A DNA stretch of 64,000 nucleotides from Acidimicrobiia bacterium (GTDB taxonomy: Bacteria; Actinomycetota; Acidimicrobiia; Acidimicrobiales; Aldehydirespiratoraceae), in the NCBI GenBank assembly GCA_022820805.1, contig JAJEEV010000014.1, positions 1 through 64,000 of the forward strand. The letters are read 5' to 3'. Made by a program: the position numbers and the translations under genes. Below, piece by piece: positions 44,136 through 47,952 of this stretch. Within the stretch, counting starts at the first letter, position 1. Each line of letters begins with the position of its first letter. The notes below the pieces were generated by a model. That model had not been told where the DNA came from. It saw nothing but the letters and a program-made list of their open reading frames with translations, and did not search any database.

Positions 44136-44738
44136 GTGTCGGTGGTTTCGGCTCTTCACGCCTCCGCGGCCGTGCTGCTGGTGGTTGCGGGCGCGACCAA
44201 GCTGTCGCGGCCCGCGGCCGGTCCCGCGAGCCTGTTCGGGTTCCGGACCCGGTCTGGCGTGGTGCGCCTCATCGGAGCGCTTGAGGCAGCGGCCGGGATG
44301 GCCGCGCTGCTCGCCGGCGGAGCGGCCGCGTGGGTCGTGGGCCTCCTCTACGCGGCGTTCGCGCTGGTCGTGCTGCGAGCCGTCGTCGCGGGCGCCGACT
44401 CCTGTGGGTGCTTCGGGCGCCTAGACGCCCCACCGTCGCTGATCCACGTCGCCGGCAACCTGGCGCTGGCCGCGGTGTCGTTCGCCGCCGCTGCCGCCGG
44501 CGCGGCCTCCGCGCCGTTCGCCGGGCTGGTGCAGTCGGTGGAGGAGAGCCCCGCCACCGGCGTCGGGCTGGCCGCCGCGATCGTGCTGGTGGCCGGGCTG
44601 GTGCTGGTGTCCTTGACGGCCCTGCCCGAGGCGCTCGCGGCCCGGTCGGCCCGTCCGGGCGGAGCGGGCCTGTTCCGGGCCCTGCCCTCGCCGGCCACCA
44701 CGAGCGCCCCGTCGCTCAACGGGAGCGGGAGATCGTGA
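44136..44738 (+). CDS. MauE/DoxX-like integral membrane protein
   Basis: 200 aa from the GTG at 44136, 8 nt after TAGCCT (likely leaderless). Four to five membrane helices; the pair of Cys in the DSCGCFG motif at the end of the second pair is characteristic of MauE, a membrane redox protein needed for methylamine dehydrogenase light-chain maturation, probably through disulfide exchange. ATKLSRP near the N-terminus also matches the MauE/DoxX fold. The stop overlaps the start of the Cys-rich protein (GTGA), exactly the partner expected. Confidence 0.82.
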   Translation: MSVVSALHASAAVLLVVAGATKLSRPAAGPASLFGFRTRSGVVRLIGALEAAAGMAALLAGGAAAWVVGLLYAAFALVVLRAVVAGADSCGCFGRLDAPPSLIHVAGNLALAAVSFAAAAAGAASAPFAGLVQSVEESPATGVGLAAAIVLVAGLVLVSLTALPEALAARSARPGGAGLFRALPSPATTSAPSLNGSGRS

Positions 44739-45952
44739 GCCGCAGGCTGGTCGAGCGGGTGTCCCGGGTGGTGGACCGCCGCGCCGGCCGCCGGGGCTTC
44801 CTGCGCTCTTCCGCGATGGCGGCCACCGCCGTGGCGGTTGCTCCCGTGGCCTACGCCCTGCGGCCCACCACCGCCGAGGCGGCCATCGTGTTGTGCAAGG
44901 GGTGGGAGTGCAGGCCCGGCGCGCTCTGCTGTGACAACTGGAGCGAGTTCTGCTGCAAGATCACCGGTGAGAACCTGTGCCCGCCGGGCACGATCGTGGC
45001 CGGCTGGTGGAAGGCCGACGGCTCCGGGTTCTGCGACCTCAACGGCCCGCGCCCCCGCTACTACCTCGACTGCAATTTCACATGCGACGAGGGCTGCCGC
45101 TGCGCCAGCGACGGAATGTGCGCCAAGAGTTGCACGCCGGCCGTGTGCAAGTGCCACGGTGGCTGCGACACCCGCAAGTCCGAGTGCATCCGCTTCCGCT
45201 ACGGCCAGTGCAACCAGGAGGTCTGCGTCGGCCAGCTCAAGTGCCGCATCGTCACCTGCGTCCCGCCATGGAAATGGGACCCGGCGTGCGCGACGTCCCC
45301 GGTGCTGACCAGCCAGAGCACCCGCTGGCACGACCGTCCCTGCCTGCACGAGGGCTTCACCGACATCCCGCCCCAGGCCTTCTACGCCGACGCGGTGGCG
45401 TGGATGGCGGCCGAGGGCATCACCACCGGGTTCACCGACGACCTGTTCGGCCCCGACGAGCTGGTCACCCGGGGCCAGTTCGCCGCCTTCCTCTGGCGCT
45501 ACCAGGGCGAGCCCGAACCCGCTTCGGGCGAGGGCTTCTTCGACGTGAGTTCGCACGCCTACTACGCGGATGCGGTGTCTTGGATGGTCGAGAAGCAGAT
45601 CACCACCGGCCGGTCGCCGGGCCGGTTCGACCCCGACAGCAACGTGAACCGAGCGCAGGCGATCGTGTTCCTGCATCGCCTGGCCGGAAAGCCCGACGCC
45701 GAGGCCGGGATCGACTTCTCAGACGTGGGCGAGGGCGAGTGGTTCGTGGACGCCCTCAAGTGGGCGCTGGCCCGCGACATCGTGTGGTGGACCGACCTCG
45801 ACGACTTCGGTGGGGCCCTTCCGGCCAGCCGCTCCGACGTGGCCCTGCTGCTGCACCGCTACCACCTTCGGGAACCAGAGCCGGAGCCGGAACCGGAACC
45901 AGAGCCAGAGCCGGAGACACCGGCGTCCGAGGCCGGACGGGTGGCGGTATGA
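44735..45952 (+). CDS. Tat-exported Cys-rich protein, methylamine dehydrogenase light-chain-like, fused to three SLH domains
   Basis: 405 aa, GTG start. RRGFLR (19-24) plus a hydrophobic stretch is a twin-arginine signal, with cleavage likely after Ala49, so the protein is exported folded. Residues 54-203 hold 24 Cys. The order CPPGT (82-86), Trp91/92, Cys100, YYLDC (109-113) and a late PPWKWDPACATSPV (177-190) parallels the MauA light chain, where two Trp form the tryptophan tryptophylquinone cofactor; Trp91/92 and Trp179/181 are the candidates. After residue 205 come three S-layer homology repeats (FTDIPPQAFYADAVAW, FFDVSSHAYYADAVSW, FSDVGEGEWFVDALKW), then an EP-repeat tail. No heavy chain or MauG is nearby. 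Cofactor formation is inference. Confidence 0.75.
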   Translation: MSRRLVERVSRVVDRRAGRRGFLRSSAMAATAVAVAPVAYALRPTTAEAAIVLCKGWECRPGALCCDNWSEFCCKITGENLCPPGTIVAGWWKADGSGFCDLNGPRPRYYLDCNFTCDEGCRCASDGMCAKSCTPAVCKCHGGCDTRKSECIRFRYGQCNQEVCVGQLKCRIVTCVPPWKWDPACATSPVLTSQSTRWHDRPCLHEGFTDIPPQAFYADAVAWMAAEGITTGFTDDLFGPDELVTRGQFAAFLWRYQGEPEPASGEGFFDVSSHAYYADAVSWMVEKQITTGRSPGRFDPDSNVNRAQAIVFLHRLAGKPDAEAGIDFSDVGEGEWFVDALKWALARDIVWWTDLDDFGGALPASRSDVALLLHRYHLREPEPEPEPEPEPEPETPASEAGRVAV

Positions 45953-46758
45953 CCGTGGTGGTCGTGCTTCTGGCCGTCGCGGTCGGCCTGCTGGCCCTGC
46001 TGGTGTTCGGGCTGCTGAGAACCCACGCCCAGATCCTGAGGGCACTCGACCGGGCCGGCATCAGCCTCGACGACGAAACCGGTGGCTCGGTGGCGACCGG
46101 ACCGGCGGCCGGGATCGAGGACCGGGCTCCCGTCGAGCAGGGGGCGGCACACGACATCGTCGGCTCTGTTCCGGCCGGAGGCCCGACCAAGGTGGCCGTC
46201 ACCGGCGTCCCGCATCTCACGCTGCTCGCGTTCCTGTCATCGGGGTGCCGCACCTGCAAGCGCTTCTGGGAGGCGTTCGCCGATCCCGGGCTGGAACTGC
46301 CCGGGGGGAGCACCCGCCTGGTGATCGTCGGCCAGGATCCGGCCCACGACTCGGAGTCGGCTCTGGCGGAACTGGTACCCAGCGGCGTCAAGGCCGTGCT
46401 GTCGTCGGCCGCGTGGGAGGATTACGACGTCCCGGGCTCGCCGTACTTCGCGCTGGTCGACGGCGCCGGGGGTCGGGTCGTGGGCGCGGGCAGCGCGCTG
46501 GAGTGGGGTCAGCTGCGGAACCTCCTCCAGCAGGCCCTGGATGATGCTGGTCTGGCCGCGGAGCCGGGGTCGCCGGTGCGAGGATCGGCGCACCGTCCGG
46601 CCACCGCACGCCGCCGCAGCGCCGACGAGACCCTGCTGTCGGCGGGCATCGGCCCGGGCCACCCGAGCCTCTATCCCGACGGATCCAGTCCCACCGACGA
46701 GCATTCCAGCAACGGTGAGCATCGTGGCGACTCCGCGGAAGCCGGCGCCGATCGATGA
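45949..46758 (+). CDS. MauD-like membrane-anchored thioredoxin-fold protein
   Basis: 269 aa, ATG overlapping the previous stop. One N-terminal membrane helix (VVVVLLAVAVGLLALLVFGLL) is followed by an outward thioredoxin-fold domain with SSGCRTCKRFW (Cys100, Cys103) and the cis-Pro region VPGSPYFALVDG. MauD is the disulfide-handling partner of MauE in methylamine dehydrogenase assembly, and the order MauE-like, light-chain-like, MauD-like here supports that role. The C-terminal 70 residues (HRPATARRRSADETLLSAG onward) are low in order and not part of the fold. Expected job: formation or shuffling of the many disulfides in the Cys-rich protein. Confidence 0.78.
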   Translation: MTVVVVLLAVAVGLLALLVFGLLRTHAQILRALDRAGISLDDETGGSVATGPAAGIEDRAPVEQGAAHDIVGSVPAGGPTKVAVTGVPHLTLLAFLSSGCRTCKRFWEAFADPGLELPGGSTRLVIVGQDPAHDSESALAELVPSGVKAVLSSAAWEDYDVPGSPYFALVDGAGGRVVGAGSALEWGQLRNLLQQALDDAGLAAEPGSPVRGSAHRPATARRRSADETLLSAGIGPGHPSLYPDGSSPTDEHSSNGEHRGDSAEAGADR

Positions 46759-46835
46759 CCACGGTCGCGGCCATCGGCGTGGCAGCCGCACTGGCCGCCG
46801 GGGCTCGATCGTCGTGGTCTCCTTGAGGCATCTCG

Positions 46836-47423
46836 ATGCTCACCAGCATCAGCCCGCTCGGTGAGCGGGCCCGGGGCAACCGATGGTGGCTGACGGTGGG
46901 TTGGCTGGCGCTCGGCGCGGTGCTGGGCGGGGCCGCCGTCGGTGCCGCTCTGGGCGCGCTCGGGCAGGCGCTGGCGGGCTCGTCCGGCGACCGGGCCCGG
47001 CTTGTCGTGCTGGCTGGGGCCGGGTTGGCGGCCGCGTTTTGGGACATGTCGGGCCTGCGCCTGCCGGGCCGGCGCCAGGTCAACGAGGACTGGCTGGTCG
47101 CCTACCGGTCGTGGGTCTACGGGGCGGGTTTCGGCCTGCAGCTCGGCGCGGCGGTGGCCACGGTGGTCAACACCGCGCTGGTGCCGCTCTTCATGCTGGC
47201 CGCGCTGCTGGCGGGCGGCACGGCCTCGGGCCTGGTGATCGGAGCGGCCTTCGGCGCAGCCCGGGCCGCGAGCATGGCTCTGGGCGTCCGGGTACGCACC
47301 ACCGACGACCTGCGACTGCTGCACCGCCGCATGGACCGCCACGCCGACCGGGCCCGCCGCGTGGGCGCGGGTGCGGCGGCCGGGCTCGGCTGCGCGGCGG
47401 CAGTGAGCGGGCTGACCCTGTGA
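46836..47423 (+). CDS. Polytopic membrane protein of the Mau-like cluster
   Basis: 195 aa, ATG start. Hydrophobic segments at about 18-45, 56-70, 92-140 (two helices) and 172-193 give four to five membrane helices, with a conserved-looking cytoplasmic or loop part WDMSGLRLPGRRQVNEDWLVAYRSWVYG. It has only one Cys, so it is not a thiol carrier. I do not recognise a characterised family; position and orientation suggest it is part of the same export/redox unit. A 77-bp gap separates it from the MauD-like gene. Confidence 0.65.
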   Translation: MLTSISPLGERARGNRWWLTVGWLALGAVLGGAAVGAALGALGQALAGSSGDRARLVVLAGAGLAAAFWDMSGLRLPGRRQVNEDWLVAYRSWVYGAGFGLQLGAAVATVVNTALVPLFMLAALLAGGTASGLVIGAAFGAARAASMALGVRVRTTDDLRLLHRRMDRHADRARRVGAGAAAGLGCAAAVSGLTL

Positions 47424-47478
47424 GGGGGACGAGCGTGCGATCCCGGCGCGGCGTTCGCGGCCATTCCGGCGGTGTGGC

Positions 47479-47952
47479 GTGAGCAGGCTGGCCGCCCACG
47501 GCGTGAGCATCGACGTGCCGGCGGGCTGGGAGGCGGAGCTGTCCCTCCAGCCCGACCCGTCGACGCTGGACCCGGCTGCGGAGCCCCTGGCCGCGCCCCT
47601 GGTGGTGTTGCATGCGGCCAACTTCTCGCTGCCCGCGGAGCGGGACGACTACGGGTCGGGGGCGGTCGAGACCATGGACCGAAACGGGATCTTCGCCGCC
47701 CTTGTCGAGTTCGACGCGGCGTCGGCCTCGACCATGCTCTTCGCGTCCGAGGGCGTGCCGGGCCGGCTGGCCGCCGGCGACTTCGCGGCCGACCAGCTCC
47801 AGGTGTCGATCCCGGGCCACGCCGGCCAGCAGCAGTTCTTCCATGTGGGGGCGCGGGCGTTCTGCCTCTACGCGGTGATCGGGTCGTACTCGCGGCGGGG
47901 GGTGCTGGTGCCCGAGCTCAACCGCGTCCTGTCGGACCTGAGCATCGACTGA
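47479..47952 (+). CDS. Small soluble protein of the Mau-like cluster, unknown function
   Basis: 157 aa, GTG start. The predicted protein opens GVSIDVPAGWEAEL, followed by a segment VVLHAANFSLPAERDDYGSGAVETM and a C-terminal QQQFFHVGARAFCLYAVIGSYSRRGVLVPELNRVLSDL. Mostly beta with one short helix at the end, no signal peptide, one Cys. It looks like the cytosolic member of the five-gene cluster. I know no function for it. It converges on the nitrilase gene across 21 bp. Confidence 0.65.
   Translation: MSRLAAHGVSIDVPAGWEAELSLQPDPSTLDPAAEPLAAPLVVLHAANFSLPAERDDYGSGAVETMDRNGIFAALVEFDAASASTMLFASEGVPGRLAAGDFAADQLQVSIPGHAGQQQFFHVGARAFCLYAVIGSYSRRGVLVPELNRVLSDLSID

Follow-up and report, generated by a model that had tools for sequence, protein, structure and literature searches.

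Five open reading frames (ORFs) on the forward strand, spanning positions 44136 to 47952, were analysed in a 64,000-nucleotide stretch of DNA (hereinafter referred to as the window; positions 1 to 64,000 of contig JAJEEV010000014.1, assembly GCA_022820805.1) from an Acidimicrobiia bacterium. They were located at the positions first described and encode homologues of MauE, MauD, and MauF, an exported Cys-rich protein ending in an S-layer homology (SLH) region, and a further protein termed here the gene E product (Table 1). MauF, MauE, and MauD are known from work on amine dehydrogenases that carry tryptophan tryptophylquinone (TTQ), for which they act as helpers. Genes 1 and 2, as well as genes 2 and 3, overlap by 4 bases, suggesting coupled translation. 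The source genome comprises 3.4 Mb in 53 contigs and is 94.8% complete. In a GTDB scan, the closest named record was an Acidimicrobiaceae metagenome-assembled genome, with 90% identity across the Cys-rich domain. The operon was not recognised in any published description among the listings and passages of the open PubMed Central (PMC) literature.

Table 1. Genes and features of the operon (window positions; aa, amino acids; Tat, twin-arginine translocation).
Feature	Position	Strand	Description
mauE-like gene (gene 1)	44136..44738	+	Membrane protein with conserved Cys-Gly-Cys; PF07291
Cys-rich/SLH gene (gene 2)	44735..45952	+	Exported Cys-rich protein with SLH end, 405 aa
Tat-type leader (RRGFL)	44735..44881	+	Boundary by eye
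Cys-rich, putatively MauA-like domain	44867..45349	+	Residues 45-205, 24 Cys; alignments of 33 and 62 members
Trp91-Trp92, invariant	45005..45010	+	62/62; CPPGT-x5-W spacing (by eye) puts Trp92 on MauA Trp57
Asp112 in RYYLDC, invariant	45068..45070	+	62/62; position resembles that of the Asp in MauA Y-x-D-C-C (by eye)
Trp179 of CVPPW, common, not invariant	45269..45271	+	Trp 57, Cys 3, Tyr 1, Ser 1 of 62
S-layer homology region	45356..45862	+	PF00395, two repeats over threshold; third degenerate (by eye)
mauD-like gene (gene 3)	45949..46758	+	Thioredoxin-like domain with Cys100-x-x-Cys103 behind an N-terminal membrane anchor (anchor by eye)
mauF-like gene (gene 4, gene D)	46836..47423	+	BLASTP and hhalign against MauF
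gene E (gene 5)	47479..47952	+	No signal peptide by eye; weakly PsbP/Mog1-like model

The product of gene 1, which carries DSCGCFG, matched PF07291 above threshold (34.9 bits, cut-off 27), and the profile of MauE-like proteins aligned with that of six MauE at E 1.2e-9 (hhalign). Its Cys-x-Cys was kept in all 47 members gathered at E < 1e-20. None of genes 3, 4, and 5 had a Pfam match above cut-off, gene 3 having been searched as a single sequence; as a family, gene 3 aligned with six MauD over 175 columns (hhalign Prob 98.6, E 8.8e-16). Cys100 and Cys103 of its product were counted by eye, and both cysteines were present in 45/45 members. For gene D, BLASTP against MauF of Paracoccus denitrificans gave E 1e-5, while hhalign gave E 2e-11 over 155 columns for 19 gene D proteins against three MauF, and E 2.7e-13 for 48 members. 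In P. denitrificans MauF, this alignment begins at residue 99, and the N-terminal SPCG segment present in the three MauF was absent from the gene D product of the window. Three mismatched profile pairs, which served as controls, gave E 0.23-0.68. By these profile comparisons, homology of the three helpers to MauE, MauD, and MauF is shown.

An earlier reading made from the sequence alone (the sequence-only reading) had recognised the MauE-like protein with its DSCGCFG and the MauD-like thioredoxin with Cys100/Cys103, both of which were borne out by the profiles. It had set gene D and gene E apart as two unfamiliar proteins. For gene D, the label of a generic unfamiliar membrane protein was rejected in favour of a MauF homologue. 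The suggestion that the operon borrows the Mau maturation logic is stronger than originally put, given the homology of gene D to MauF and the MauD-like profile of gene 3. The model of the gene E product was confident (pLDDT 93.8), structural matches to the PsbP/Mog1/Eag-like fold were weak, and no signal peptide was seen by eye; the product is probably a cytosolic partner.

The Cys-rich domain of gene 2 (the head) had no Pfam match and no sequence match in the PDB. All 24 Cys of the protein lie within residues 54-203, confirming the number given by the sequence-only reading for a Tat-exported protein, and Trp occurs at residues 91, 92, 179, and 181, among others. Across the family, the head is about 135-170 aa long and contains 16-28 Cys. 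The number is even in 51 of 62 domains, a count that includes related and hence non-independent rows and uses profile-defined domain ends. The leader motif RR-x-[FLVW]-hydrophobic was found in 59/62 members, the remainder being two without it (L069, L070) and one masked (L066); the leader scored 12.3 bits against TIGR01409, under the cut-off of 16.7. Residue counts (Table 1) refer to 62 members, 61 of them distinct. The TTQ tryptophans of MauA are numbered 57 and 108, and Asp76 of MauA (in YRDCC) matters for TTQ formation. As the counterpart of Trp57, the CPPGT spacing favours Trp92, whereas the distance to the next Cys in the members with no C-terminal part favours Trp91.

The head is the constant part of the family and the tail is exchangeable, with mean column identities of 63% and 13%, respectively. 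Among 54 C-terminal parts, family matches were LGFP 24, SLH 18, CWB2 4, FG-GAP 4, and DUF4214 2, where one part could count under two families. The other eight of the 62 members had a short or no C-terminal part (L027, L066, L068, L069, L070), were cut by a contig end (L034, L051), or were identical to another member (L054, to L039). LGFP, SLH, and CWB2 are wall-binding modules. The gene 2 protein of the window matched PF00395 with 89.5 bits (cut-off 20.8) in two stretches. Of the three SLH domains claimed earlier, two were thus over the Pfam threshold but the third was not. The proposed S-layer surface anchor is only one of several exchangeable ends, and four members have none; SLH as a defining feature of the family was rejected, since the tail varies (LGFP, SLH, CWB2, and others). 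Elsewhere in the source genome, SLH-type matches were noted, at 17 places including that of the window and with some sharing one ORF.

With the Cys-rich domain as query, 32 GTDB loci were found. Together with the window (33 loci), the MauE-like gene was detected in 30, the thioredoxin in 31, gene D in 23, and gene E in 28, as counted by profiles grown from the window proteins and with early-ending contigs included. By tblastn, the five genes recurred in 22-32 of the 32 loci and seven flanking genes of the window in 2-6, some flanks being hidden by short contigs. In a wider set of 64 rows, three of which were second views of an already listed genome, all genes found shared one strand in every row. 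All five genes were present in 29 rows, many of the 64 being cut by contig or stretch ends; 19 showed the order MauE-Cys-MauD-MauF-E, eight the order MauE-MauD-MauF-E-Cys, and two other orders (L030, L037, which together with L047 and L048 lie outside the two main ones). The Cys-rich gene stood alone in two rows, and the lack of a MauD-like gene in L013 was due to masking of the stretch.

Among 396 Actinomycetota genomes, the Cys-rich domain was found in 31, gene E in 31, and a MauF-like gene in 59. One of the Cys-domain matches (G008; E 2e-4, two stops) was spurious and was rejected as noise. The Cys-rich domain and gene E were shared by 30 genomes (hypergeometric 9e-43, relatedness ignored), and all 31 genomes with gene E also had a MauF-like gene. 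In G326, the sole gene-E genome without the Cys-rich domain, these genes sit on a contig of 4,278 bases, which stops about 300 bases past gene E. The sequence-only reading had made co-occurrence of the five genes in other genomes one of its tests, and because they do co-occur (30 shared genomes; one-strand clusters), it held on this point.

A match of the Cys-rich domain to the profile of the methylamine dehydrogenase (MADH) light chain (PF02975), to which the sequence-only reading had pointed, was found in 0/33 family members. No PF02975 match was found in the source genome at E 10, and none over cut-off in the 396 genomes, where four sub-threshold matches lay elsewhere. The likeness to MauA came instead through two PF02975 proteins of Thermomicrobium and four stand-alone members, i.e., those with no C-terminal part (L066, L068, L069, L070). 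The four members aligned with the two proteins over 67 columns at E 5.7e-8, and 0/60 shuffles with fixed Cys were as good. In pairwise tests, which covered 16 of the 62 members and held Cys columns fixed, one Thermomicrobium protein (P0006) gave z-scores of 9.5 (L069), 8.4 (L070), 7.0 (L068), and 5.4 (L066), with 0/200 shuffles as good. For the window protein, z was 2.9 against P0006 (3/200 shuffles) and 3.2 against the second protein (0/200). The link lies in the first half of the domain and runs from CPxxT through the D-C region to the Cys cluster that follows; no alignment was obtained for the second half, which in MauA holds Trp108. Pairwise scores against six MauA were mostly inside the shuffle range, with L047 standing out (z 2.8-4.4).

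Neither the heavy chain (PF06433) nor MauG (PF03150) was found in the source genome, which extends to the whole genome, at 94.8% completeness, the earlier statement that neither is encoded at the locus. The PF06433 search, which gave matches over cut-off in two records of mau or amine dehydrogenase clusters, had no match in 14 control genomes either, and none in the Nakamurella genome of L030. The PF03150 search gave matches over cut-off in two of the 14 control genomes.

We consider it likely, at a probability of roughly two in three, that these five genes form a relative of mauFEDA, a part of the mau operon, that lacks the heavy chain and is devoted to disulfide maturation of a wall-anchored, MauA-like Cys-rich protein. 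The gene 2 precursor would leave the cytoplasm via the Tat route. The MauE-like membrane protein with its Cys-x-Cys, the membrane-tethered MauD-like thioredoxin with its Cys-x-x-Cys, and the MauF-like membrane protein would then build disulfides outside the cytoplasm, and the SLH end (LGFP, CWB2, or FG-GAP in relatives) would anchor the product to the wall. The gene E product would act in the cytosol, perhaps as a chaperone holding the Cys-rich protein before export. Both disulfide formation by the helpers and the wall location are what we infer from these features, and the even number of Cys in most domains fits the former. MauE has been speculated to serve disulfide formation in the beta subunit of methylamine dehydrogenase (a passage of PMC7794033, citing van der Palen 1997).

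Several results weigh against this interpretation, most of them concerning the relation to MauA. The family profile matched MauA at E 0.065; in comparisons with shuffles, the family gave E 0.038 against six MauA (2/60 shuffles as good), and the four stand-alone members E 0.12 (11/60). For the whole family, comparison with the two Thermomicrobium proteins gave E 0.013 (2/60). The four stand-alone members were chosen after their sequences had been seen, and two of them (L069, L070) lack the RR-x-F motif. A search of the 396 genomes with P0006 (E <=0.05) hit 34 genomes but no locus of the Cys-rich family. The AlphaFold2 model of the Cys-rich domain (pLDDT 41, pTM 0.30) was too poor for a comparison with the MauA fold. 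In addition, the MauF gene was not nearby in some rows of the 64-row set; in the two genomes checked (G374, G134; L097, L099) a MauF-like gene was located elsewhere, apart from the rest of the operon. The MauA likeness seen by the sequence-only reading thus stands by way of the Thermomicrobium proteins and the stand-alone members but not in direct comparison with MauA, and the alignments support, but do not prove, that the head descends from the family of the light chain.

A rival reading is a surface-anchored, amine-oxidising TTQ enzyme in which Trp92 and Trp179 would be cross-linked as they are in methylamine dehydrogenase. The invariant Trp91, Trp92, and Asp112, the presence of Trp179 in 57/62 members, and the three Mau-like helpers are in accordance with such an enzyme. 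However, Trp179 is lost in five members, Trp181 is Trp in only 39/62, and the Trp108-Cys motif common to MauA and the two Thermomicrobium proteins has no invariant counterpart in the family. A TTQ of the MADH type is unlikely because the second Trp is not kept and neither MauG nor the heavy chain was found in the source genome, and we regard the amine-oxidising surface enzyme as very improbable. Overall, the sequence-only reading was right in what it saw, but it overlooked MauF and claimed too much with the TTQ-like Trp pair.

Two proposals for the task of the head are compatible with the maturation reading. The head may be purely structural or adhesive, its conserved Trp and Asp residues only holding a disulfide knot. 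The 46 family counts for LGFP, SLH, or CWB2 from the 54 C-terminal parts, and again the prevalence of even Cys counts, agree with a wall protein of this kind, but the much stronger conservation of the head relative to the variable tail points to a specific task, and we hold this role only as a tentative possibility. Alternatively, Trp91, Trp92, and Asp112, being invariant, might form a cofactor derived from a single Trp or from Trp and Cys, or else the site of a copper-associated oxidised Trp such as the kynurenine of MopE/CorA. In passages of the literature, the partner enzymes for TTQ of MADH and for cysteine tryptophylquinone of LodA/GoxA act on a Trp already bearing the first hydroxyl (PMC7876137), and copper proteins of the cell surface that contain an oxidised Trp are described (PMC3912023). 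This role appears doubtful, as the invariant Trp may be structural, the oxidising partner MauG was not found in the source genome, and flanking genes resembling (by eye) P450 (3/32 loci) or PhyH-type oxygenases (6/32) rarely recur. Least credible of all is a peptide natural product, in which the Cys-rich head would be cut off and released. It has a parallel in the MauE-containing candidate clusters for ribosomally synthesised and post-translationally modified peptides (RiPPs) of Streptomyces; the decRiPPter survey lists three families in which mauE homologues, joined in one family by mauD, accompany precursors of at least eight Cys (a passage of PMC7794033). Against this, the head, of about 135-170 aa, is mostly fused to wall-binding ends, and Pfam gave no sign of a RiPP enzyme or protease among the five genes, of which genes 3-5 had no match over a cut-off.

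Further clusters were observed around MauF-like genes of other genomes. Eleven loci were inspected from the other 28 of the 59 genomes with a MauF-like gene. In eight of the first nine (L086-L090 and L092-L094, not L091), another protein with a Tat leader and the motif [GA]W-x-RCC-x-GR-x-R-x-x-x-DCC was seen beside the MauF-like gene (second class). A thioredoxin and a MauE-like match were close by in 7/8 (weak in L094), L086 being cut by a contig end, and MauF and MauE matches lay within one ORF of about 380 aa in L087, L089, and L090. Five of these thioredoxins aligned with MauD at E 1.2e-38, and six of the MauF-like proteins with MauF at E 1e-16. The second-class Tat-leader proteins gave z -1.4 to 2.6 and hhalign E 0.074 against MauA, z 1.1-4.6 against P0006 (0/100 shuffles as good only for L092), and hhalign E 0.0058 against the two Thermomicrobium proteins. 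A third class of Cys-rich leader protein adjoins MauF-like genes in G256 and G287 (L104:5064-5495, reverse strand; L105:598-1029, forward strand) and bears CP[DE]G...WGCC...CRDC; these were the only P0006 matches of the 34 genomes next to a MauF-like gene. By eye, the second Trp at the MauA place is not kept in either class.

The pairing of the three helpers with a wall-anchored Cys-rich protein in place of methylamine dehydrogenase suggests a maturation kit that acts on proteins of more than one type. The conserved set of MauF, MauE, and MauD with this Cys-rich protein in about 30/396 genomes, together with MauF-like genes that neighbour those of further exported proteins rich in Cys, would recast the helpers as a maturation kit for disulfide-rich exported proteins. 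Systems with neither heavy chain nor MauG would allow the role of MauF, MauE, and MauD to be tested alone, and a family that keeps Trp and Asp but no strict second Trp may make the first step of Trp oxidation testable in a simpler setting. As a bolder and improbable extension, the head could bear a Trp-derived redox or metal group at Trp91-Trp92/Asp112, made without MauG and without a Trp-Trp cross-link; the operon would then represent an ancestral or alternative version of the TTQ maturation path, exposed at the cell surface, with a portable MauF-E-D kit acting on different Cys-rich exported proteins in several Actinomycetota lineages.

Among known systems, the candidate RiPP clusters of Streptomyces likewise place mau maturation genes beside Cys-rich products while the rest of the mau cluster is missing; compared by description only, the passages of PMC7794033 mention no MauF, Tat leader, or wall anchor. 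The aau operon of aralkylamine dehydrogenase has the order mauE-mauD-light chain, which is also the family's second gene order, although the latter has gene E and often MauF in between. The aau operon also encodes cytochromes and a heavy chain, and its examined stretch has no annotated MauF. The megaplasmid cluster of Thermomicrobium roseum (L076:1717-10349) combines two PF02975 proteins over cut-off with a MauE domain and MauD-like and MauF-like genes. It differs in that both TTQ tryptophans are present in its PF02975 proteins, its large proteins have only sub-threshold propeller matches with no PF06433 match in the record, and gene E was not found in the 14-kb stretch. The MauE domain lies at the end of one such large protein. 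An apparent third MauA-like copy, with a reading frame seemingly disturbed (by eye), was noticed at L076:4772-5599. As in the mauFBEDA genes of Paracoccus and Methylobacterium, the window family has MauF, MauE, and MauD homologues next to an exported protein that is rich in Cys and bears CPPGT-x5-W and D-C, and the leader is similar by eye. In contrast to mauFBEDA, no MauB heavy chain or MauG was found in the source genome, the second TTQ Trp is not conserved, and a fused wall anchor and the extra gene E are present.

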